NCBI GenBank assembly: GCA_026395555.1
Contig: JAPLYO010000024.1
Location: forward strand, 62,001-126,000
Length of the DNA: 64,000 nt
Direction: 5' to 3'
Source of the DNA: Candidatus Peregrinibacteria bacterium
GTDB taxonomy: Bacteria > Patescibacteriota > Gracilibacteria > UBA1369 > UBA12463
Both the position numbers and the translations under genes were made by a program. This document shows, one piece after another, positions 24,847-56,703 of this stretch. Below the pieces are notes generated by a model. The model was not told the origin of the DNA, ran no database searches, and saw nothing but the letters and a program-made list of their open reading frames with translations. How positions within the stretch are numbered: the first letter of the stretch is position 1; each line of letters opens with the position of its first letter.

Positions 24847-26305
<1,459 letters not shown>

Positions 26306-26317
26306 ACAGAGATATAG

Positions 26318-26343
26318 CCTATGATTCCTTCGGGAATCATAGG
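26318..26343 (+). other. Perfect hairpin in the 16S trailer
   Basis: CCTATGATTCC and GGAATCATAGG form an 11-bp perfect stem closed by a TTCG tetraloop. A second, imperfect TTCG hairpin follows at about 26352-26383. There is no T-run, so these look like RNA processing or stability structures rather than terminators. Confidence 0.75.
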
Positions 26344-26437
26344 TAAGGTCGACCCCTTATCGTCCTTCGGGATCATAAGCGGGTAGTTATCTAGAGTTCT
26401 CTACTACATTTTGAATGTTAAGACGCCGAAAGGCAGG

Positions 26438-26464
26438 AGCCCTTAGCGTAAGGGCTTTTCTTTT
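26438..26464 (+). terminator. Rho-independent terminator of the 16S unit
   Basis: AGCCCTTA/TAAGGGCT, an 8-bp perfect stem with a 3-nt loop, followed by TTTTCTTTT. It ends the 16S transcript before any 23S gene, 23 nt before tRNA-Ala(TGC). Confidence 0.85.
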
Positions 26465-26486
26465 ACATCAAGTTTCATTTTGCCAT

Positions 26487-26563
26487 GGGGACATAGCTCA
26501 GCTGGCTAGAGCACCTGCTTTGCAAGCAGGGGGTCCGGGGTTCGAATCCCCGTGTCTCCACCA
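26487..26563 (+). tRNA. tRNA-Ala (TGC)
   Basis: Complete cloverleaf: GGGGACA/TGTCTCC with the alanine identity pair G3:U70, anticodon stem CCTGC/GCAGG around TTTGCAA (anticodon TGC). CCA is encoded. It sits after the 16S terminator, so it may need its own promoter or read-through. Confidence 0.96.
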
Positions 26564-26587
26564 GATTTTTGCGAAGCAAAAATTGAT

Positions 26588-26617
26588 CCCGTTCCCGTTT
26601 TCGGTTCGGGTTTTTTT
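26588..26617 (+). terminator. Likely terminator after tRNA-Ala(TGC)
   Basis: CCCG ... CCG-TTTT-CGG ... CGGG form a stem with a small internal loop, followed by seven T. A related unit, ATCCCGTTCCCGATTTCCCG, occurs after tRNA-Leu(GAG) near 49315 but lacks the T-run. Confidence 0.65.
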
Positions 26618-26864
26618 GTTGTGCCTGATTTTGTCAGCAGGAGGATCTGGTTGTCTTATTATATACCTATATCCGTTTTGATGTCTTTTTGCTGTATATT
26701 TGGATACGCCCTCTCTATATATCTGGGCCTCTTGACTTTCGAAGCTGAATTCTATGGTCGACCATAGGTTTTAGCTTTGGATATTTCAGAGTACAAAACA
26801 GTTATTGACAAACCGCATAAAATTGGTAGAATACTACTCTAGCATTTTATAGCAAACCCTACAT
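26618..26864. other. Spacer with a promoter for the lipoprotein genes
   Basis: No gene is seen here. The notable items are a 16-bp perfect palindrome CTATGGTCGACCATAG (26752-26767) and a promoter with TTGACA (26805-26810), a 16-nt spacer and TAGAAT (26827-26832) in front of the lipoprotein gene at 26865. Confidence 0.6.
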
Positions 26865-27680
26865 ATGCGCACTTCTTCCCTCCTCGTAGCAGCAGCGTTG
26901 AGCCTGAGCGGCTGTGCAACAGATCAGCTCGAAGGTTCGAATGTGACTCTAGCGACAAAAAGTACGGGAAATGGCGGCCGACGCATATTGCCATTTCAGC
27001 GAGACAATGAGCCAAAAATAGAGAAACCAGATCCATGTATCTCTCTTATAAAAGACCCCTCGTTCAAATCATTTTACTTAAAATGGAGAGGGCTCATGAA
27101 GGATATCTTGAAAGATACAACACCGGCCTTACCAGAATTGCACGACTCAAGTGCCCCCATGTGTGAAATGACCACTGTAGATAAAAATATTACCACCAAA
27201 ATTCATTCTTTTTTTGGTGCCGATGGACAATTTGTTGGGCATATCATAAGACCAGAAAAGCCAAATAACTCCTTCCGAATTTCTCTTGAAACAACATTTG
27301 GCGGCATTGATGGCAAGCAAAACCCTGCCCCCGACTTAGGACAGGTAGATAATGATCCAAATCAATGTGCGGCGCTCAAGATTGATGTATGGAAAGAGTG
27401 GGAAAGGCTCATACCGCTTTCGCCAGACCACGTGCCCGGTGCTGTACCAACAATCGGGCAGATTCATGAAGATACCGTATATCTTCCTTGTGATCCGACA
27501 GCGCCAGCGATGATTGGCGGTTACGGTTGTGGGTACGAGGCACCTTCACCTGAGAATGGCAATCAACTTGTCGATGGTTGCGGCGGCGGCGGTGACTTTC
27601 TCGATCGGAATGAGGTTACGGCACTTATTCAGTGCCTCCAGAATGAAATGAAAATCGTTGCAAAGGAAATGTGTCTCTAG
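26865..27680 (+). CDS. Lipoprotein of unknown function
   Basis: A 271-residue exported protein with signal peptide MRTSSLLVAAALSLSGC and an LSGC lipobox. The mature part is cysteine-rich (Cys in DPCISL, APMCEMT, QCAALK, YLPCDP, GYGCGYEA, DGCGGGG, IQCLQN, EMCL), suggesting disulfides outside the cytoplasm. A glycine-rich GGYGCGYE...GCGGGGDFLDRNE stretch near the C-terminus ends in a DxN segment that could bind a metal; this is speculative. I do not recognise the family. A second lipoprotein-like gene follows 63 nt later; both may be transcribed from the promoter at 26805. Confidence 0.8.
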   Translation: MRTSSLLVAAALSLSGCATDQLEGSNVTLATKSTGNGGRRILPFQRDNEPKIEKPDPCISLIKDPSFKSFYLKWRGLMKDILKDTTPALPELHDSSAPMCEMTTVDKNITTKIHSFFGADGQFVGHIIRPEKPNNSFRISLETTFGGIDGKQNPAPDLGQVDNDPNQCAALKIDVWKEWERLIPLSPDHVPGAVPTIGQIHEDTVYLPCDPTAPAMIGGYGCGYEAPSPENGNQLVDGCGGGGDFLDRNEVTALIQCLQNEMKIVAKEMCL

Positions 27681-27743
27681 TTGCTGGAATGAAATAGTTA
27701 GAATAAAAGTATATATTAATCTCTCATCATTTACCTCCCTCCT

Positions 27744-28223
27744 ATGAAATTGTCTCAAACTCTTCTTCCTGCACTGGCTTCACTTTCTCTTGCATTGACT
27801 CCTGCGTGTACTCAAAAGTCTGCGGAAAAACCAGCACTTACCGAACAGGATCGGGAGCTGTGTGATTTGGCAATCCGACATACTAGATATTCTATAGGTG
27901 CTATTTATATTCTCAAGGTTCAGTATCCTGATAAGATGGAGTATCCAATCTCTAGTGACTATACTGCTCATGCTGGAGAGGGAATCGATCTTTATACTAA
28001 AACGCAATTAGTTGAACAAAATCTTATTTCAAGTAGAGAGATGCTCATGCGTGATTGTGACGCACGGTTTGATGATGAAAAGCCTGCATTACGAACTTGT
28101 GAGGATGAGGGCGGAAATGCGTGGTGTAAGCTTGATCTTTCCCAGCTGAGAAATAAGGTCAAAGCATTAACTTCCGGTAATGCCGTTGAGCATGATTTTT
28201 TTCTTTCCAAGGAAGATAAATAA
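27744..28223 (+). CDS. Small exported protein, probable lipoprotein
   Basis: A 159-residue protein with signal peptide MKLSQTLLPALASLSLALTPAC; the TPAC sequence is an imperfect lipobox, so lipid modification is likely but not certain. The mature part has five cysteines after the putative lipid cysteine-proximal region (LCDLAI, RDCDAR, RTCEDE, AWCKLD), is charged, and has no recognised domain. It follows the 26865 lipoprotein on the same strand and its C-terminus is convergent with the slipin gene (10-nt gap). Function unknown. Confidence 0.75.
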   Translation: MKLSQTLLPALASLSLALTPACTQKSAEKPALTEQDRELCDLAIRHTRYSIGAIYILKVQYPDKMEYPISSDYTAHAGEGIDLYTKTQLVEQNLISSREMLMRDCDARFDDEKPALRTCEDEGGNAWCKLDLSQLRNKVKALTSGNAVEHDFFLSKEDK

Positions 28224-28233
28224 TTAGACCTTC

Positions 28234-29013
28234 TTACTTCTTCGCTCCCTCAGCCTCCATAAACCGCTTCACGTCCTGAATCGTTCCCATAAACTGTGAT
28301 GGGAAGATGATGGTGGAGTTCTTTTCGACGGCGATTTCGGCCATCGTTTGGAGGTTGCGGAGCTGAAGGGCAATCGGGTGTTCCATCATGATGTCGGCGG
28401 TTTCGGCGAGTTTTTGAGAAGAGAGGAACTCACCCTCGGCGGCGATGATTTTGGCACGCTTTTCGCGTTCGGCCTCGGCCTGTTTGGCCATGGCGCGCTG
28501 CATGGATTCCGGAAGTTCGATGTCCTTAATTTCTACCACAGAGATAATCACACCCCAACTTTCCGTGTGGGTATCGAGTACCGTAGTGATTTCTTTGTTG
28601 ATGGTCTCGCGTTCGCTGAGGATCTCGTCGAGTTGAAAGCGGCCGACGATGTTGCGCATGGAGGTCTGAGCGATTTGATTAATGGCGTCCATTACCCGTT
28701 CAATGGCGACGATGCTCTTGATGGGGTCGACGATTTTGTAGTAGGCGACGGCGGATATGTCCACTGAGACGTTATCTTTTGTAATGATTTTTTGTTTTGG
28801 AATTGGCATCGTGATCGTTCGCATGTCGACTTTTCTGACTCGATCGATGAGGGGAATCATCCAGTTCAAGCCTGGCTCTTTGACTCCTACGACTTTACCA
28901 AATCGGAAGATGACACCTTTTTCATATTGTGAGACCGTGAAGAATCCACTGAGAATGAGCGCTACGATTACGATGATGTAGGGATACTGGGCGATGAATT
29001 CGAGCATGATCAA
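28234..29013 (-). CDS. Slipin (SPFH/stomatin-like membrane protein)
   Basis: A 259-residue SPFH-domain protein with one N-terminal membrane hairpin or helix (about 8-28) followed by the stomatin core: [55 protein letters not shown], and the coiled-coil [22 protein letters not shown]. Slipins form large membrane rings that organise lipid domains. They are often encoded next to an NfeD protease partner; none is present here, the neighbour being a P-type ATPase gene 30 nt upstream. The product is probably functional but orphaned. Confidence 0.93.
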
Positions 29014-29043
29014 TAGTAGTTATATAATGAGTAGTGGAAATAT

Positions 29044-30903
29044 TTAGTCGGTATGTACACGCAGTGCGTTAAGGATGACGACAATGTCCACCGCCTCCTG
29101 AATGATGGCACCATAGAGAGGAGGGATGTAGCCGAAGGCGGCGATGATCATGAAAAAAACGCTCAGTCCCATGCCTGTAAATATGCTCTGTTTGGCGATT
29201 TTGAGGGTGCGCCGAGCGATAGCGAAGGCGTCACTTACTCGTTCGATGTTATCTACCATGATGACGATATCCGCTACTTCTGAAGTTGCCGTGGAGCCAG
29301 TGGATCCCATGGCGATTCCTATGTCTGCTGCTGCTAATGCTGGCGCGTCGTTGATTCCATCTCCTACCATGACAACCGGTGATGACTCTTTGCGAAGTCG
29401 TTCGATATGTTTGAGTTTGTCATCAGGAAGGCATTCGGCAATCACTTCATGCACGCCTGCCTGTTCACCTATGTGGTTGGCTACCGCTTTTCGATCGCCT
29501 GTGAGCATAACAGTTCGTCGTATTCCGTGTCGATGAAGTGACTCAAAGAGTGTTTTTACCTCTGGACGTACGGTGTCTGCGAGATAAATTGTTCCGAGAA
29601 ATTCTTTCTCGCTGGCCAGATATAACGCCATTTTTCCATGACTCTTAAGATTTATTTCATGCTCCTTCACGTCCTTTGGGATGTTTATGCCCTGTGATTC
29701 TATGAGCCCAAGTTTTCCTAAATAATATGTCGTATGGTCGAGTTTTCCTTTTGCTCCGCTTCCAATAATTTCCTCAAATTCCGTTGGGTAGGATAGTGCG
29801 ATGTTGTTGGTTTTTGCGTACTGAATTAATGAACGTGCGATGACGTGTACGGAGACCTGGTCGAGCGATGCGGCAATTTGTATAATCTCCTCCGGTGTTC
29901 CTTTCTCTGCCTTTATTTCTGTGATATTAGGTACACCAAATGTGAGCGTTCCCGTCTTATCAAAAACAAATGTTTTTGTATTTCCAAGCGCTTCGAGTGC
30001 GCCGCCATTCTTGATGATGATACCTTTTTTGGCCGCCTTGCTCATGCCGGAAACGATAGCAATTGGTGTGGCGAGAATGAGCGGACAAGGAGTTGCCACG
30101 ACGAGTACCGCCAAGAGGCGCATGCCCTCATGTGCCAATGCCCATGCGGTTCCAGAGAGTATGAGTGTGATAATGGTGAACCATCCACTATATCGATCTG
30201 CAAGACGAACCATCGGAGCCTTTGTTTTTTCTGCGCCCTCTACGAGACGAATGATTTGTTCGTACTGGCTGTCTTTACTTACGTGAATTGCTTTAATCTC
30301 AAGTACATTTCCTTTGTTGATGCTTCCGCTCATAACATGACTGTTTAATCCTTTCTCAACCGGGATTGATTCTCCGGTTAGCGCGGATTCATCCATAGGA
30401 GAGTTTCCTTCTGTTACGATTCCATCTACGGCGACTACCTCGCCTGGTTTTACGACGATGATATCTCCAATCCCTACCTCATCGACTGGTATACTTCGTA
30501 ATTCGCCTTTTTCTTTTTTATGAGCTTTACGAGGAGCATTTGAAATTAGCGAGGTTAGCTCTTTTTTTGCACGAGAGAGAGCGAAATTTTCAAGAGCTCT
30601 TCCTCCCGAAAGCATGAGCACGATGAATATACCAGCGAGGTACTGATTCATTACATACGAGGTAATGATTGCCAAGAGAGCGATAATGTCAGCACCAAAT
30701 TGGCCTTTTCGAATGGCTCCGATTATTTCAATGAATACCGGTATGGAACCTATGATAAGTAACACTCTAAAAATTTCCATAGCCAAGTCTTCCATTCCCT
30801 GAGTGCGCAGTATCACCCAAGCGATGATACTTATAAGAGACGCTATTCCAATAGCATATTCGACGGGAAATGAACGGAGAGATATTTTTTTCTTCATGGT
30901 CAT
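29044..30903 (-). CDS. Heavy-metal P1B-type ATPase
   Basis: A 619-residue membrane pump. Landmarks are the phosphorylation motif DKTGTLTFG, the actuator TGES in DESALTGESIPVEKG, GDGINDAPALAAADIGIAMG, and the metal-passage motif ATPCPLIL in the membrane. CPL instead of CPC, and the absence of an N-terminal metal-binding (HMA) domain, argue against a standard copper exporter; a zinc/cadmium/cobalt-like or other divalent specificity is more likely. A TATAGT box about 7 nt before the ATG at 30903 (minus strand) suggests a very short leader. It is divergent from the VIT transporter, hinting at shared metal handling. Confidence 0.9.
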   Translation of the reverse strand: MTMKKKISLRSFPVEYAIGIASLISIIAWVILRTQGMEDLAMEIFRVLLIIGSIPVFIEIIGAIRKGQFGADIIALLAIITSYVMNQYLAGIFIVLMLSGGRALENFALSRAKKELTSLISNAPRKAHKKEKGELRSIPVDEVGIGDIIVVKPGEVVAVDGIVTEGNSPMDESALTGESIPVEKGLNSHVMSGSINKGNVLEIKAIHVSKDSQYEQIIRLVEGAEKTKAPMVRLADRYSGWFTIITLILSGTAWALAHEGMRLLAVLVVATPCPLILATPIAIVSGMSKAAKKGIIIKNGGALEALGNTKTFVFDKTGTLTFGVPNITEIKAEKGTPEEIIQIAASLDQVSVHVIARSLIQYAKTNNIALSYPTEFEEIIGSGAKGKLDHTTYYLGKLGLIESQGINIPKDVKEHEINLKSHGKMALYLASEKEFLGTIYLADTVRPEVKTLFESLHRHGIRRTVMLTGDRKAVANHIGEQAGVHEVIAECLPDDKLKHIERLRKESSPVVMVGDGINDAPALAAADIGIAMGSTGSTATSEVADIVIMVDNIERVSDAFAIARRTLKIAKQSIFTGMGLSVFFMIIAAFGYIPPLYGAIIQEAVDIVVILNALRVHTD

Positions 30904-30949
30904 ACTATATATAGTTACGGACGTGGAAATTATCCTCTCTGTAATTTTA

Positions 30950-30977
30950 TTGTCAAATAGCCATTCTTTGCTATGAT
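30950..30977 (+). promoter_or_regulatory. Promoter of the VIT-family gene, leaderless
   Basis: TTGTCA (30950-30955), 16-nt spacer, TATGAT (30972-30977) with extended TGC. The ATG at 30987 starts 9 nt after the -10 box, so transcription would begin almost at the start codon. Confidence 0.65.
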
Positions 30978-30986
30978 GGGACTACT

Positions 30987-31655
30987 ATGGTGGAACGAAT
31001 TGCTGCTAATATGAAGGATATGATTCTGGGTGGCCAGGATGGACTGGTAAATGTTCTCGGCGTTATTTTGGGTATTGCCGCGGCCACGAGCGATATGCGT
31101 ATTATCTTGGCGGGAGGCTTTGCGGCAACTTTTGCTGAGTCTATTTCTATGGCTGCAGTAGCCTATACCTCGACGATTGCCTCTGTTGATTATTATGAAA
31201 GCACGAAGAAGAATGAAGAGCGATCTATAGAGGAGAATCCCGAGATGGAAATCCAAAAGATTCGAGATGTGTATGCCGCAAGGGGATTCGAGGGTGATCT
31301 ACTTGATCAAATAGTTACAAAGATTACTTCCGATAAAACTCGCTGGGTTGAGGTCATGATGCTTGAGGAGTTGCGACTTTCTCCTGCAACCAAGAATGGG
31401 GCCCTTTGGTCTGCGCTCATTGTCGGTTTGTCAGCTATGGTTGGATCGTTTGTTCCGCTTGTTCCATTTTTCTTCTTTAGTGTTAAAGCAGGCGTTATCG
31501 TCTCTCTTATTGTTTCAAGCCTTGCTCTTTTTGGCGCCGGGGCTTTCAAGGCAAAAATTACCGTTGGCTACTGGCTCAAGAGCGGTATTCAGATGTTAGT
31601 CATCGGTCTCGTATCTGCACTTCTTGGATATTATATTGGTTATCTGTTTTCATAA
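30987..31655 (+). CDS. VIT1/CCC1-family iron or manganese transporter
   Basis: A 222-residue membrane protein of the vacuolar-iron-transporter-like family, which moves Fe2+ or Mn2+ out of the cytoplasm. The family start DMILGGQDGLVNVLGVILGI (first helix with the conserved GGQDGLVN) is followed by AAGGFAATFAESISMAA and an acidic cytoplasmic metal-binding section (about 70-130) with repeated glutamates (EERSIEENPEMEIQ). Three more helices follow. It is divergent from a metal P-type ATPase and 9 nt upstream of rsmE. Confidence 0.9.
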   Translation: MVERIAANMKDMILGGQDGLVNVLGVILGIAAATSDMRIILAGGFAATFAESISMAAVAYTSTIASVDYYESTKKNEERSIEENPEMEIQKIRDVYAARGFEGDLLDQIVTKITSDKTRWVEVMMLEELRLSPATKNGALWSALIVGLSAMVGSFVPLVPFFFFSVKAGVIVSLIVSSLALFGAGAFKAKITVGYWLKSGIQMLVIGLVSALLGYYIGYLFS

Positions 31656-31664
31656 TTTTCCTCT

Positions 31665-32387
31665 ATGCATCGGTTTTTATTACGAGAAGGTGATGTGGTT
31701 GATGACAAGGTTTTTGTTATTATTTCAGAGGAGCTTCGCAATCAGTGGACGAAAGTTTTGCGCTTCCGAATTGGCGAAAAGGTGATCCTTTTCCGTGATG
31801 ATGACAAGGAATATGTAGGTGAAATTACCTCGATTCTTCCGAAAATTATTCAGGGAAACGTTTTGAATGTATCCGAGCGCAAGACGGAACTTCCGGTGAA
31901 TATTATTGTGGCACAGAGTATTTTGAAAAATCCCGAAAAGCTTGAGTGGATTTTGCAGAAGGGGACAGAGCTTGGTATGAGCGATTTTTACCCTCTTATT
32001 ACGCATCGCACGGAGCGGCAATTTTTGCCGAAGTTTGAGCGCCTACAACGCATTTTAGTTGAAGCTACTGAGCAGTGCGGTCGATGCAAGGTTCCGGTAC
32101 TCCATGAGCCGATGAAATTTGAAGCTTTCCTGAAAACTAAAGTTACAAAAGATAGTCTCGTCCTTATTCCTCATACTATGGGAGGCAAGAAGATGAATGA
32201 GTTAAAGTTGATTGATGAAAAATCAATTGTTGTGTGTATTGGACCCGAGGGGGGATTTGATGAAAAGGAGGTTGAGGATGTTACGAAAGTTGGGGGTATA
32301 TCTGTTACGTTAGGAAAGCGAGTGTTGCGCTCTGAGACCGCCGCTATAGCTGCTGTCGCCATGTTGGCTGCACATATTGAGGTATGA
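31665..32387 (+). CDS. rsmE: 16S rRNA m3U1498 methyltransferase
   Basis: RsmE methylates U1498 in helix 44 of 16S rRNA. The 240-residue SPOUT methyltransferase has the N-terminal PUA-like part (MHRFLLREGDV, KVLRFRIGEKVILFRDDD) and the trefoil-knot part (QSILKNPEKLEWILQKGTELG, CIGPEGGFDEKEVE, VTLGKRVLRSETAAIAAVAM). All key loops are present. It ends with TGA, one of the stops that shows the standard code. Its substrate region in the local 16S gene is intact. Confidence 0.95.
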   Translation: MHRFLLREGDVVDDKVFVIISEELRNQWTKVLRFRIGEKVILFRDDDKEYVGEITSILPKIIQGNVLNVSERKTELPVNIIVAQSILKNPEKLEWILQKGTELGMSDFYPLITHRTERQFLPKFERLQRILVEATEQCGRCKVPVLHEPMKFEAFLKTKVTKDSLVLIPHTMGGKKMNELKLIDEKSIVVCIGPEGGFDEKEVEDVTKVGGISVTLGKRVLRSETAAIAAVAMLAAHIEV

Positions 32388-32475
32388 TTCGTTGGACATC
32401 AATTCACTTAAGGAGCTTTATTTCTAGTTGCATTTATCTCTCAAAACCTTTTTACTATTCGTGGTCAGATTTTGT

Positions 32476-32552
32476 GGGGACGTAGCTCAGTTGGCTAGAG
32501 CATCGTCATGGCATGACGGGGGTCGTGGGTTCAAGTCCCATCGTCTCCACCA
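32476..32552 (+). tRNA. tRNA-Ala (GGC)
   Basis: Acceptor GGGGACG/CGTCTCC with G3:U70; anticodon stem TCGTC/GACGG around ATGGCAT (anticodon GGC). CCA encoded. It is 88 nt after rsmE. Confidence 0.95.
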
Positions 32553-32605
32553 GAATTTTTCCAGAAGAAAAGAGTGATCCTGTTTTTTGGATCCATTACC
32601 AGTTT

Positions 32606-32681
32606 GGGGCTATAGCTCAGTTGGTAGAGCGTTCGGTTCGCAATCGAAAGGTCGAGAGTTCGAATCTCTTTAGCTCCACCA
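32606..32681 (+). tRNA. tRNA-Ala (CGC)
   Basis: Acceptor GGGGCTA/TAGCTCC with G3:U70; anticodon stem TTCGG/TCGAA around TTCGCAA (anticodon CGC). CCA encoded. It lies 53 nt after tRNA-Ala(GGC). Confidence 0.94.
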
Positions 32682-32714
32682 AGTATATTCTTCCTATGTA
32701 TATAGAGAGTGTAC

Positions 32715-33137
32715 TTACTCCTTTAATAATCTCAGCTCATCGATATTGATGGTATTTTTCACGGTGTCATAATATTCAACCTTGAACTGATCCCCGATGA
32801 TTTCGATGACTTTTGCGTTATATAAGGGTTCGCCTTTCCATTGCGCGATAATATTTGTTCCAACTTTTATATCATCCTTTGATGGTACGACATCTTTAAT
32901 GATACTTTCGCTCGTAAGACACTGCTGAGCCCCTCTATCATAGGTAACGTTATATCCCCCTGAACATGTTCCATCGATCTTTCCACTGTACCAGATGTTT
33001 TTTTCTCTCTGGGCAAAAACTCTCGTCCCGCCGGGAAGTCCAACAAAACGACTCATACCTCCTATAATAATGATAAGCCCGATAATACCTACTAAGGATC
33101 TTTTGGCCCATTTCTTATAATGCATCGAATTTTTCAT
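32715..33137 (-). CDS. Membrane-anchored protein with two Tudor-like domains
   Basis: A 140-residue protein with one N-terminal membrane helix (about 14-34, VGIIGLIIIIGGMSRFVGL). After it come two short repeats with the same pattern, a small beta-barrel of Tudor/agenet type: GTRVFAQREKNIWYSGKI then YNVTYDRG, and GTNIIAQWKGEPLYNAKVIE then FKVEYYDT. Such folds bind short modified peptides or nucleic acids, but here they would face outside the cytoplasm if the helix is a simple anchor, so ligand and role are unknown. It is flanked by tRNA genes. The domain call is from pattern alone. Confidence 0.65.
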   Translation of the reverse strand: MKNSMHYKKWAKRSLVGIIGLIIIIGGMSRFVGLPGGTRVFAQREKNIWYSGKIDGTCSGGYNVTYDRGAQQCLTSESIIKDVVPSKDDIKVGTNIIAQWKGEPLYNAKVIEIIGDQFKVEYYDTVKNTINIDELRLLKE

Positions 33138-33301
33138 GAGTAGAGGTGAGTTATAGAGAGCTGAAGTAGATGAACTTCTTCGTTATTATAGTGGGTAGCT
33201 ACTTCCAAGTCTAATTCTCGTTTGACTTACGGACGCTTTTTCTATAGCTTATTGCTTGCTTGGAAGCTGGTCTTTCTTCAGTAAAGACCTTCACAAGATA
33301 T

Positions 33302-33378
33302 GGGTGATTAGCTCAGGTGGTTAGAGCGCAGTCCTGATAAGACTGAGGTCCGTGGTTCAAGTCCACGATCACCCACCA
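33302..33378 (+). tRNA. tRNA-Ile (GAT)
   Basis: Acceptor GGGTGAT/ATCACCC; anticodon stem CAGTC/GACTG around CTGATAA (anticodon GAT). CCA encoded. In linked rRNA operons this tRNA usually lies between 16S and 23S; here it is 7 kb from 16S and 0.7 kb before 23S. Confidence 0.96.
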
Positions 33379-33385
33379 TGATAGT

Positions 33386-33628
33386 ATGAATAAACTCCTT
33401 TCCCTCCTCCTCGGTCTTCCCACTGCCATACTTCTCATCAAGTATCGTCGCAATGTGGGGGATTTTATCGGTCCGGTCGATTTTGCTGAAAAGTACCTTG
33501 GAAGCGGGGGAACCTACTCTTTGGTCATTATCATAGCTTTCGCCGTCTTTGTTCTCTCCCTTATGTACGCCTTCGGGACCTTTCAGGAAATTTTTGGTGG
33601 ACTCGCTACGCCATTTACCGGCGGCTGA
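33386..33628 (+). CDS. Small two-helix membrane protein
   Basis: An 80-residue protein starting 8 nt after the tRNA-Ile CCA. It has a short N-terminal hydrophobic helix (LLSLLLGLPTAILLI) and a second one (about 44-65, YSLVIIIAFAVFVLSLMYAF), with a charged loop KYRRNVGDFIGPVDFAEKYLG between. No family is recognised. The closeness to tRNA-Ile suggests joint transcription, with the coding part released when the tRNA is cut out, which would leave an essentially leaderless message. Confidence 0.7.
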   Translation: MNKLLSLLLGLPTAILLIKYRRNVGDFIGPVDFAEKYLGSGGTYSLVIIIAFAVFVLSLMYAFGTFQEIFGGLATPFTGG

Positions 33629-33690
33629 AGGGCCGTTTTCTAGCTTTAGCTAGCCCAATCTAGATTTATGAATGTTTTCTGAAAATTCTC

Positions 33691-33719
33691 TTGACGCCCT
33701 AGCTTCCCATCAGTAGTAT
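33691..33719 (+). promoter_or_regulatory. Promoter upstream of the 23S unit
   Basis: TTGACG (33691-33696), 17-nt spacer, TAGTAT (33714-33719). It is the best promoter in the 450 nt before 23S, but a strong terminator-like hairpin (33851-33876) lies between it and the 23S gene. Confidence 0.7.
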
Positions 33720-33725
33720 ACACCA

Positions 33726-33876
33726 GCACGTGACCCTAACTTCACGCATTGAAATTTTCTCTCCTTTCCTTGGCTTATAGGCCAACGCACAATCTTTTGT
33801 TCATACACCCTTCCGCTTAGATTCGGACACACAGGGATTATGGATAGGAGAGTGTGCGGAGACGCACACTTTTTTT
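33726..33876 (+). ncRNA. Candidate structured leader RNA or small RNA ending in a perfect terminator
   Basis: About 150 nt run from the predicted start of the promoter at 33691 to a perfect terminator: AGTGTGCG/CGCACACT with a GAGA loop, followed by seven T (33870-33876). Inside, CGTGA/TCACG (5' hairpin), TTGGC/GCCAA and TCCG/CGGA form small hairpins, and CTCTCCTTTCC (33759-33769) pairs with GGATAGGAGAG (33842-33852) at 10 of 11 positions, closing a multi-branched domain. The closing stem overlaps the terminator stem by two bases. No known RNA family is recognised. It may be an independent small RNA or an attenuator controlling 23S transcription. Confidence 0.55.
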
Positions 33877-34078
33877 GTCCCTTGAAAATTCGGATGATTA
33901 AAATGCAATCATGCAAATCAGTAAAATGTAATGCAATGAATGCAATTTCACAAATATATATACTATTAAACCTGGTATATATATGGATAAAACATACAAT
34001 AGTATACACTCATGTGTATGCGGTGATCTTTCTTTAGGAGGTAATTACCTTTGGTAATTGCTTGTTAGAGAGAAAAGA
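33875..34078 (+). repeat. Left arm of the long inverted repeat flanking 23S
   Basis: The 23S leader can pair with the 23S trailer in several blocks. Outer block 33875-33905 matches 37235-37265 (27 of 31 Watson-Crick plus two G-U). A middle block with TATATGGAT (about 33979) matches ATCCATATA (37227-37235), and CACTCATGTGTATGCGG (about 34007-34023) matches the CGCACACATATGAGCG region (about 37137). Inner block 34056-34078 matches 37075-37099 with a 2-nt bulge. This brings the two ends of the 23S precursor together. Confidence 0.8.
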
Positions 34079-34080
34079 TT

Positions 34081-37070
<2,990 letters not shown>

Positions 37071-37074
37071 ATAT

Positions 37075-37265
37075 TCTTTTCTCTTATTAACAAGCAATTA
37101 TTAGAGGTAATTCAAAATTACCAATCATAGTTGTTTCGCACACATATGAGCGTAGAACAAGAATTTCAGTTTTAAACTGTCTTGTTTGTCCAAGTAAAAT
37201 TGACATTCATTGACTTCTATTACTGATCCATATACGTTTTAATCATCCGAATTTCGAGGGGACAA
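37075..37265 (+). repeat. Right arm of the long inverted repeat flanking 23S
   Basis: Counterpart of 33875-34078. The inner block TCTTTTCTCTTATTAACAAG continues into CAATT (37075-37099); the outer block 37235-37265 contains TTTTAATCATCCGAATTT. The arm ends about 30 nt before 5S, so 5S is outside the paired region. Confidence 0.8.
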
Positions 37266-37295
37266 CAAATTGTTCCTTTTACAATAAGCGTCACC

Positions 37296-37413
37296 GTCTT
37301 GGTAACTCTAGAGAGTGGGGTACACCTGTTCCCATCCCGAACACAGCAGTTAAGCCGCTCTTCGCCGATGATACTCACGCACAGTCGTTGGGAAAGTAGG
37401 GCGTTACCAAGAC
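37296..37413 (+). rRNA. rrf: 5S ribosomal RNA
   Basis: About 118 nt; the ends GTCTTGGTAAC and GTTACCAAGAC pair as helix I. Internal landmarks are CACCTGTTCCCATCCCGAACACAG and AGTTAAGC. It follows 23S by about 225 nt, the spacer being mostly the 23S inverted-repeat arm. Confidence 0.97.
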
Positions 37414-55345: not shown

Positions 55346-56305
55346 ATGATCCCAACCGACCAGATTCAAGCTCAGCTTCCTTTTTGTCTCGAGGAGACCG
55401 ATTTTCCCACTCTGGGAGAGAAGTATATTGGAAAGGTAAGAGATAATTATACAAGCGGTGATAAGCGATATTTGATTTCAAGTGATCGTCTTAGCGCTTT
55501 TGATCGCGTGATCTGCACGATCCCGTTCAAGGGTCAGGTTTTGACACAGATGGCAAAGTTTTGGTTTGAGCAGACGAAAGACATTATTGGAAATCATGTC
55601 ATCTCCTATCCAGATCCTCAGGTGTGCGTTGGTGTTCAGTGCACGCCACTTCCTATCGAGATGGTTGTTCGTGGATACATCACGGGAGTTACTTCTACGA
55701 GCGCCTGGTTTAACTATGAAAAGGGAGTTCGTAACTTCTGTGGAAATGTTCTTCCTGAAGGTTTGAAGAAAAATCAAAAGTTCGACAAACCTATTTTGAC
55801 GCCTTCCACAAAGGCTGAGCATGGTGACCACGATGAGTCGGTATCAAGAGAAGAAATTCTCAAGCGAACCTCTCTCACTCCGGAGCAGTATGACTTCATC
55901 GCTGATGCGTCATTGAAATTGTATAACCGTGGCGTTGAGATTGCGGCCAAGCAGGGGATTATTCTTGTGGATACGAAATATGAATTTGGACTTACCCCTA
56001 CGGGTGAGATCGTTTTGATTGATGAAATTCATACTCCAGACTCTTCACGTTTCTGGTTTGCAGATGAGTACGAGAAGCGTTTTGCTTCCGGCGAAGAGCA
56101 AAAGAAGATTGATAAGGAGTATTTGAGAGAGTGGTTGGCTGAGCGCGGATTTACAGGTGATGGAGAGATTCCAGTCATTCCTGATGAAATCAAGGTCGAA
56201 ACCGCACGCCGATACATTGAGGCGTATGAACTTGTCACTGGCCAGAAGTTTGAGGCTGAAGTCGGGGATGTGACCGAGCGAATTAAGAAGAATCTCGGTA
56301 TATAA
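55346..56305 (+). CDS. purC: Phosphoribosylaminoimidazole-succinocarboxamide synthase
   Basis: PurC (SAICAR synthase) adds aspartate to CAIR in purine synthesis. The 319-residue protein has GKVRDNYTSGDKRYLISSDR, LSAFDRVICTIPFKGQVLTQ, PIEMVVRGYITGVTSTSAWF, LTPSTKAEHGDHDESVS, and VDTKYEFGLTPTGEIVLIDE followed by HTPDSSRFW. It is of the longer type (about 300 residues), not the short 240-residue form. It is followed by the tRNA-like element at 56450 and then purE and purB. Confidence 0.96.
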   Translation: MIPTDQIQAQLPFCLEETDFPTLGEKYIGKVRDNYTSGDKRYLISSDRLSAFDRVICTIPFKGQVLTQMAKFWFEQTKDIIGNHVISYPDPQVCVGVQCTPLPIEMVVRGYITGVTSTSAWFNYEKGVRNFCGNVLPEGLKKNQKFDKPILTPSTKAEHGDHDESVSREEILKRTSLTPEQYDFIADASLKLYNRGVEIAAKQGIILVDTKYEFGLTPTGEIVLIDEIHTPDSSRFWFADEYEKRFASGEEQKKIDKEYLREWLAERGFTGDGEIPVIPDEIKVETARRYIEAYELVTGQKFEAEVGDVTERIKKNLGI

Positions 56306-56415: not shown

Positions 56416-56449
56416 ATCTGAATGTTAGGTTTGATGTGTCAGTTTGAGT

Positions 56450-56520
56450 GGGGGTGCTCATGGTTGGCTAGCTGAAGTTGAGATTCTGCTAGGCGGGTTC
56501 GATTCCCGTCACCTCCACCA
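56450..56520 (+). ncRNA. Alanine-type tRNA-like RNA without a D stem (tmRNA-like end domain)
   Basis: 71 nt. Acceptor GGGGGTG pairs with CACCTCC, with the alanine identity pair G3:U70, then A73 and an encoded CCA. A normal T arm is present (GCGGG-TTCGATT-CCCGT). There is no D stem: CTCATGGTTGG links the acceptor to a hairpin CTAGC-T-GAA / TTC-T-GCTAG with loop GTTGAGA. Acceptor, T arm, missing D stem, a non-standard helix in place of the anticodon arm and G3:U70 are the marks of the tRNA-like domain of tmRNA, but the mRNA-like domain and pseudoknots are absent. Alternatives are a degenerate tRNA, a tRNA-Ser-like RNA (loop would give UGA), or a deleted ssrA. A strong terminator follows. Confidence 0.55.
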
Positions 56521-56532
56521 CCCTGACATTAC

Positions 56533-56566
56533 AAAAAGAGGTTTCCCTAGGGAATGCCTCTTTTTT
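56533..56566 (+). terminator. Strong terminator after the tRNA-like RNA
   Basis: AAAAAGAGG/CCTCTTTTT, a 9-bp stem enclosing a second short palindrome TTCCCTAGGGAA, followed by T6. It lies 12 nt after the CCA, which supports transcription of the tRNA-like element as its own unit. Confidence 0.8.
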
Positions 56567-56703
56567 GGTGCCATTTGGCTCTAGCTGAAGTTGAGTGTTT
56601 CTATTGTAACATGTTTTATTTCTTGCTCAAATACCCGTTTTCTGTCATTATAGAGCCGTCAACGGGTTGTTTTAGCTTTAAATACACTTTTACCTCCCAC
56701 GCC

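Follow-up and report, generated by a model that had tools for sequence, protein, structure and literature searches.

Between the genes purC (55346-56305) and purE (start about 56704), both identified through Pfam, a contig of a Candidatus Peregrinibacteria bacterium encodes a 71-nt RNA that resembles an alanine tRNA. Three canonical tRNA-Ala genes also lie within the window, by which we mean the whole stretch of 64,000 nt that was analysed, and the 71-nt element is therefore unnecessary for decoding alanine codons. This raises the question of what other role a small tRNA-like RNA with an alanine-type acceptor might have in this genome (G000; 1.2 Mb, 90%-complete). The initial annotation had suggested either that a tmRNA had been cut down to its end domain or that the RNA is charged with alanine and serves in ribosome rescue or some other role.

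The locus and the fold of the tRNA-like RNA

In several related genomes (e.g. L033-L037 and L057) purC and purE are adjacent without the element. Elsewhere in the window (24847-37412) an unusually long spacer of ~7.8 kb, in which several tRNA genes lie, separates the 16S from the 23S rRNA gene. Sequence and folding bear out most of what had been described for the 71-nt RNA itself, namely a paired acceptor (GGGGGTG/CACCTCC) with G3:U70 followed by A73 and an encoded CCA, a T arm (GCGGG-TTCGATT-CCCGT), a hairpin with a 7-nt loop (CTAGC-U-GAA-[GUUGAGA]-UUC-U-GCUAG) and a terminator 12 nt downstream. The description went wrong in denying the RNA a D stem, as a 3-bp version is present (Table 1) and covaries across the family (97.4% paired). 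Folding energy by itself is unremarkable (z = -1.2 for the 71 nt and -4.6 with flanks), and it is through its conservation and covariation that the window RNA stands above chance. The leader and trailer extend the acceptor helix of the predicted precursor, and family-wide the pairing run between them is 6.6 for own combinations as against 4.3 for swapped ones.

Table 1. Features of the two-RNA locus in the window
Feature	Position	Strand	Basis and remarks
Possible extended -10 region TTTGATGTGT of the tRNA-like RNA	56430-56439	+	By-eye likeness to TTTGNTANNNT preceding paralogues; weak in the window copy; low confidence
Leader TGTCAG	56437-56442	+	Pairs with trailer CTGACA (56523-56528), extending the precursor acceptor helix; fold
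tRNA-like RNA	56450-56520	+	71 nt; acceptor, mini D arm, anticodon-like arm, T arm; model R1 61.0 bits
Mini D arm UCA-UGGU-UGG	56458-56467	+	3-bp stem UCA/UGG, invariant GG in loop UGGU; fold, covariation, model alignment
Anticodon-like arm	56468-56492	+	Loop GUUGAGA with U-turn (UNR) motif; fold, covariation, model alignment
Antisense target CTAGCTGAAGTTGAG (5' arm and loop)	56468-56482	+	Score 37.0 against a maximum of 28.0 for 30 other loci
Predicted antisense small RNA	56532-56597	-	~66 nt, with limits deduced from where promoter and terminator lie
Bidirectional intrinsic terminator	56533-56566	.	Common to both convergent genes, 12 nt after the element; on the antisense strand read by eye, the automatic check not flagging the window copy
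Antisense seed CTCAACTTCAGCTAG	56581-56595	-	Complementary to 56468-56482
-10 box TACAAT of the antisense RNA, inside extended -10 TGTTACAAT	56603-56608	-	Promoter analysis

A multicopy family in Patescibacteria

The element belongs to a multicopy family that is widespread yet patchy in Patescibacteria. Copies of 70-74 nt were first collected from sub-threshold hits of the tmRNA model, and a covariance model (R1) was built on 11 gapless copies. At E <= 1e-8 the covariance model matched 44 of the 89 genomes of the order, among which G055 is counted through a 77-nt hit only, probably a tRNA; further copies occur elsewhere in the class and in the phylum, to which the searches with the models were confined. 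True tRNA-Ala genes (76-77 nt) begin to appear among hits that score less than about 55 bits, and weak hits were accordingly judged by their length and by a test for the antisense partner described below. Copy numbers, which are lower bounds given strict multi-genome filters and mostly incomplete draft genomes, stand at six in the host genome itself (C8, which is the window copy, C16, C18, C21, C23 and C27), while the 0.6-Mb genome G689 yields eight hits, seven of them of element length. The spread is that of an accessory element, with genus g349, for example, carrying it in two of eight genomes.

In an alignment of 68 copies, standard pairs fill 95.0% of the cells of the 24 pairs (63.8% after shuffling), double changes are seen in 22 of these pairs, and the covariation score is 0.803 as against 0.19 for shuffled and about 0.1 for slid controls; the copies having been aligned by fitting to the model, structure is favoured, but the gap to the controls makes an artefact unlikely. 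Covariation is found in all four helices, including the D stem. In the model alignment the D-loop GG is present in 68/68 copies and a U-turn motif (UNR) in the hairpin loop of 63/68. Conservation in relatives with covariation had been named as a check on the element; it is strong, and on this count the element is not refuted. The behaviour of the elements differs from that of elongator tRNAs, for which a call by ARAGORN or RF00005 with a constant anticodon would be expected: ARAGORN called only 4 elements across 39 loci, with differing anticodons, and the loop bases vary. In the window ARAGORN makes no call of 56450-56520, and the gathering cut-offs of Rfam 15 likewise miss the element.

The predicted antisense gene and the acceptor signature

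The 15 nt of the hairpin at 56468-56482 recur at 56581-56595 just past the terminator, a repeat that the initial annotation had missed, and TGTTACAAT reads from there back towards the terminator. This placement predicts a transcript whose first bases are complementary to the hairpin and whose end is at the shared terminator. Across the family the corresponding unit consists of a near-consensus promoter, a stretch of 12-20 nt able to pair with the loop and 5' arm of the hairpin, and usually a terminator, the last following the seed in 51 of 67 loci. The antisense -10 box lies ~6 nt upstream of the seed (P=4e-22) and is stronger than the -10 box of the element in 96 of 111 loci (7.2 against 5.9; P=4e-15), which fits an inhibitor kept in excess; these and the following P values are approximate given that the loci are related to one another. 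The antisense gene is convergent with the element in 67 cases, tandem downstream in 28, divergent upstream in 16 and tandem upstream in one. Convergent partners predominate in the order to which the window belongs, whereas outside it partners are mostly in same-strand tandem, often with TTGACA and TATAAT-like boxes, and some are divergent. The four arrangements indicate that it is complementarity that is conserved, and not gene order. Six loci (L106, L107, L113, L115, L121 and L140) have a second, partial copy of the element 3' end (...TCCACCA) inside the predicted antisense region, and their antisense RNAs may also pair with the CCA end.

The pairing is specific to each locus. When the flank of an element was compared with the flanks of 30 other loci, the own flank held the best antisense match in 63 of 71 loci (mean score 38.3 against 21.6 for other flanks, s.d. 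3.2), a fair control since the best match of a whole flank is taken on both sides. In an extended set, from which hits judged doubtful or to be tRNAs were left out, a partner lies beside 112 of 119 elements, or more cautiously 112 of ~123 if four element-like sequences without a convincing partner that had been set aside (L290, L304, L311 and L313) are added. Elements with no clear partner include L140, L276, L289, L290 and L304, besides a few others at contig ends. Binding energies in the extended set are -17.8 kcal/mol for own and -3.3 kcal/mol for swapped partners, a comparison that favours the own pair, because each partner was selected for matching best within its own flank. Mismatches between element and partner keep pairing as G-U over A-C by 75:22 (P=6e-8). 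A second, weaker antisense arm is complementary to the D stem and the acceptor 5' strand, above swapped controls (P=7e-9); it was tested separately because the loss of the acceptor stem in RNAcofold, which forbids crossing pairs, is no evidence. Taken together, this locus-specific complementarity and the G-U bias show that each tRNA-like RNA and the predicted antisense RNA dedicated to it co-evolve, through the compensatory changes that mark an antisense pair.

The genes neighbouring the elements are of mixed housekeeping kinds, with type II toxin-antitoxin genes at two loci, and no constant protein partner was found among those examined. A Cys-rich protein was considered as such a partner and rejected, as only family f1, in several of its loci, has it beside the antisense gene. 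This multicopy protein of ~470 aa has no Pfam match, and its gene ends just before the antisense promoter (L003:1-1416, L010:88-1413, L005 and L012). A search of viral contigs with two exact element patterns, weak in that these patterns are strict, gave no match.

The acceptor carries the alanine signature with great constancy: pair 3:70 is G-U in 67 of the 68 aligned copies, whereas pairs 4:69 to 7:66 vary freely. Given that both the tmRNA model and R1 favour G3:U70, a model free of the acceptor (R3, comprising the D arm, hairpin and T arm) was used, and among its hits outside the training set that have a partner and a pairable acceptor, 37 of 42 have G3:U70 and A73. Two of the five exceptions, L246 (G512:C13) and L255 (G558:C27), combine a glycine-type acceptor (G1:C72, C2:G71, C3:G70, U73) with an antisense partner; these lineages may have switched to a different amino acid, and alanine is thus not absolute for the family. 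In the remaining three the acceptor is degenerate (L302), the parse is seemingly mis-registered (L264), or the hit is a genuine tRNA, with a second tRNA gene taken for its partner (L262). These data support the view of the element as an alanine-type tRNA-like RNA in which selection maintains G3:U70, A73 and the T arm, and by this signature we infer that it is alanylated. Two related copies, L300 (G031:C1:7234-7283) and L302 (G072:C3:23504-23555), have kept a strong antisense partner and seemingly lost the acceptor stem.

What the two RNAs might do

Comparison of the copies establishes, at the level of sequence, a cloverleaf with an alanine acceptor signature and, beside it, an antisense promoter, usually with a terminator, and locus-specific RNA-RNA pairing kept by co-evolution. 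Our favoured proposal, to which we give about even weight, is that these form a toxin-antitoxin-like module, in which an alanine-charged tRNA mimic would be silenced by its own antisense RNA. The first RNA would be a small cloverleaf that keeps the features recognized by AlaRS (G3:U70, A73 and CCA) along with the T loop and the D-loop GG of the tRNA elbow, and its tiny D arm and the over-long, variable-loop arm replacing the anticodon arm would make decoding unlikely. The second RNA, a short transcript from the adjacent promoter, would pair through its first 12-20 nt with the U-turn loop, where binding would begin, and the 5' arm, and through the weaker second stretch with the D stem and the 5' strand of the acceptor. 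Binding in this way would unfold the first RNA. When free, the first RNA would be harmful, for instance by occupying AlaRS, EF-Tu or ribosomes, and the second would inactivate it. The patchy, multicopy occurrence without a constant protein partner, sometimes near type II toxin-antitoxin genes, points to accessory, toxin-antitoxin-like behaviour, and the apparent loss of the acceptor in L300 and L302 with antisense pairing kept resembles the pattern that decay of a toxin would leave. A more tentative extension, in our estimate somewhat short of even, is that the modules make up a Patescibacteria-wide two-RNA toxin-antitoxin class, in which an aminoacylated tRNA mimic would get into the translation machinery and block it, and a dedicated antisense antitoxin would unfold the mimic. 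The proposed module predicts charging of the mimic, pairing with the cognate partner only, and growth arrest where the partner is missing.

The case for toxicity is drawn from genomic behaviour, and a beneficial RNA dosed by an antisense RNA would look similar in this respect. Such an RNA could be a useful, non-toxic carrier of alanine outside translation, serving for example cell-wall ligases of the FemAB/MurM type or another tRNA-dependent transferase. FemAB enzymes use aminoacyl-tRNA, and both the alanine identity of the acceptor and the glycine-type identity in two lineages match amino acids that Fem/MurM enzymes use; moreover, the copy at L013 lies directly beside a FemAB-family gene (L013:293-1369, G003:C2). 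However, this adjacency is seen once only, the remaining neighbours being unrelated, and a housekeeping carrier would need neither the patchy distribution within genera nor divergent copies in a genome with antisense RNAs that are not interchangeable. Hence, we regard such a carrier as unlikely.

The conserved pairing of two RNAs that are encoded together could also mean that they form an active complex, i.e. a split RNA machine comparable to a two-piece tmRNA, with the antisense RNA as a needed half instead of an inhibitor. This appears distinctly improbable, as in the order of the window the second RNA is often just 12-20 nt and a terminator, with no tag-like reading frame by eye, and the complementarity of its second arm to the D stem and acceptor strand would undo the tRNA fold. 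A split tmRNA with its coding part in the second RNA was likewise rejected, there being no such frame by eye and little room for one in the short form.

Less probable again, to the point of being hard to sustain, is the initial proposal of a tmRNA reduced to its end domain, a domain that lacks a D stem, or of an alanine RNA for ribosome rescue. The window element is the best hit of the tmRNA model RF00023 in the genome and has a tmRNA-like 5' end; it aligns with the model end to end at 41.1 bits, below the gathering cut-off of 47, with true tRNA-Ala genes close behind (34-36 bits). The mRNA-like tag region and the pseudoknots are absent, as had been claimed for the mRNA domain, the model skipping over 300 positions to fit 71 nt. 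A permuted tmRNA was rejected, with RF04321 scoring 22 bits against a cut-off of 47. As to a full ssrA and smpB elsewhere in the genome, for which the initial annotation had proposed to look, smpB is present but a complete ssrA was not found in the 90%-complete host genome, nor was a full tmRNA in G001 (100% complete). The smpB gene (G000:C18:8662-9081, L067) lies ~5 kb from a second element copy (G000:C18:3340-3410). Against a remnant stands the finding that, among the host genome and 39 relatives, 34 of 40 pass the tmRNA cut-off, and that five relatives, G002, G003 and G004 of the same genus and G005 and G007 of the same family, have a full tmRNA (408-439 nt) as well as 71-72-nt elements, so that the element coexists with tmRNA. 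The covarying D stem, the antisense RNA of nearly every copy and the many copies per genome also speak against it, and use in ribosome rescue is possible in principle, with nothing in the analysis pointing there. Finally, the notion that there is no RNA function, the element being a decayed tRNA gene and the repeat a target-site duplication or recombination relic, takes its appeal from the convergent partner being a direct DNA repeat and can practically be set aside, since the partner in tandem loci is an inverted repeat and the conserved feature thus cannot be a direct one, mismatches keep RNA pairing, the promoter distance is steady and four helices covary.

Returning to the module of a tRNA mimic and its antisense RNA, it can be set beside several known systems. 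To our knowledge, hardly any regulatory RNAs have been characterised in Patescibacteria, which make up a major part of bacterial diversity and have tiny genomes. No Rfam 15 family covers the element at gathering cut-off, and no description of a tRNA mimic with an antisense module was found in the open-access papers to which the search was confined. With alanine tRNA the element shares the acceptor identity, T loop, D-loop GG and a mostly encoded CCA, whereas its D stem is of 3-4 bp with a very small loop, it has almost no variable region, and its anticodon-like arm is of ~9 bp instead of 5 with a loop lacking a constant anticodon. With tmRNA it has in common the alanine acceptor (G3:U70, A73 and CCA), the T arm and a similar 5' sequence, and differs in its size of about 70-74 nt, its D stem, the lack of an mRNA-like domain and pseudoknots, its multiple copies and its antisense partner. 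The type I toxin-antitoxin systems hok/sok, tisB/istR and zor/orz resemble the module in the pairing of a short antisense 5' end with its target, in U-turn target loops, and in being multicopy and locus-specific; in these systems the target is an mRNA, whereas that of the module is not and has no toxin reading frame. An alanine-type tRNA mimic that is present several times per genome and has an antisense RNA co-evolving with it would represent a new use of the tRNA fold.

Another close comparison is with type VIII systems, in which both toxin and antitoxin are RNAs; TADB 3.0 lists creTA and SdsR-RyeA as the two validated kinds (PMC10767807). Like these, the locus has two adjacent RNA genes, both predicted, with no protein partner needed; if our reading holds, the likeness extends to neighbouring partners, on one strand or on opposite ones, of which the second silences the first (PMC10767807). 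In creTA, the CRISPR-like guide CreA works with Cascade to repress transcription, and in one study CreT uses a tiny ORF to sequester a rare tRNA (PMC8501985). Here, in contrast, the target is itself tRNA-shaped, with an acceptor chargeable by its signature, and the antisense RNA is predicted to pair with it directly. If the mimic is toxic, the module would add to the RNA-toxin/RNA-antitoxin class, of which TADB 3.0 names only these two validated kinds.
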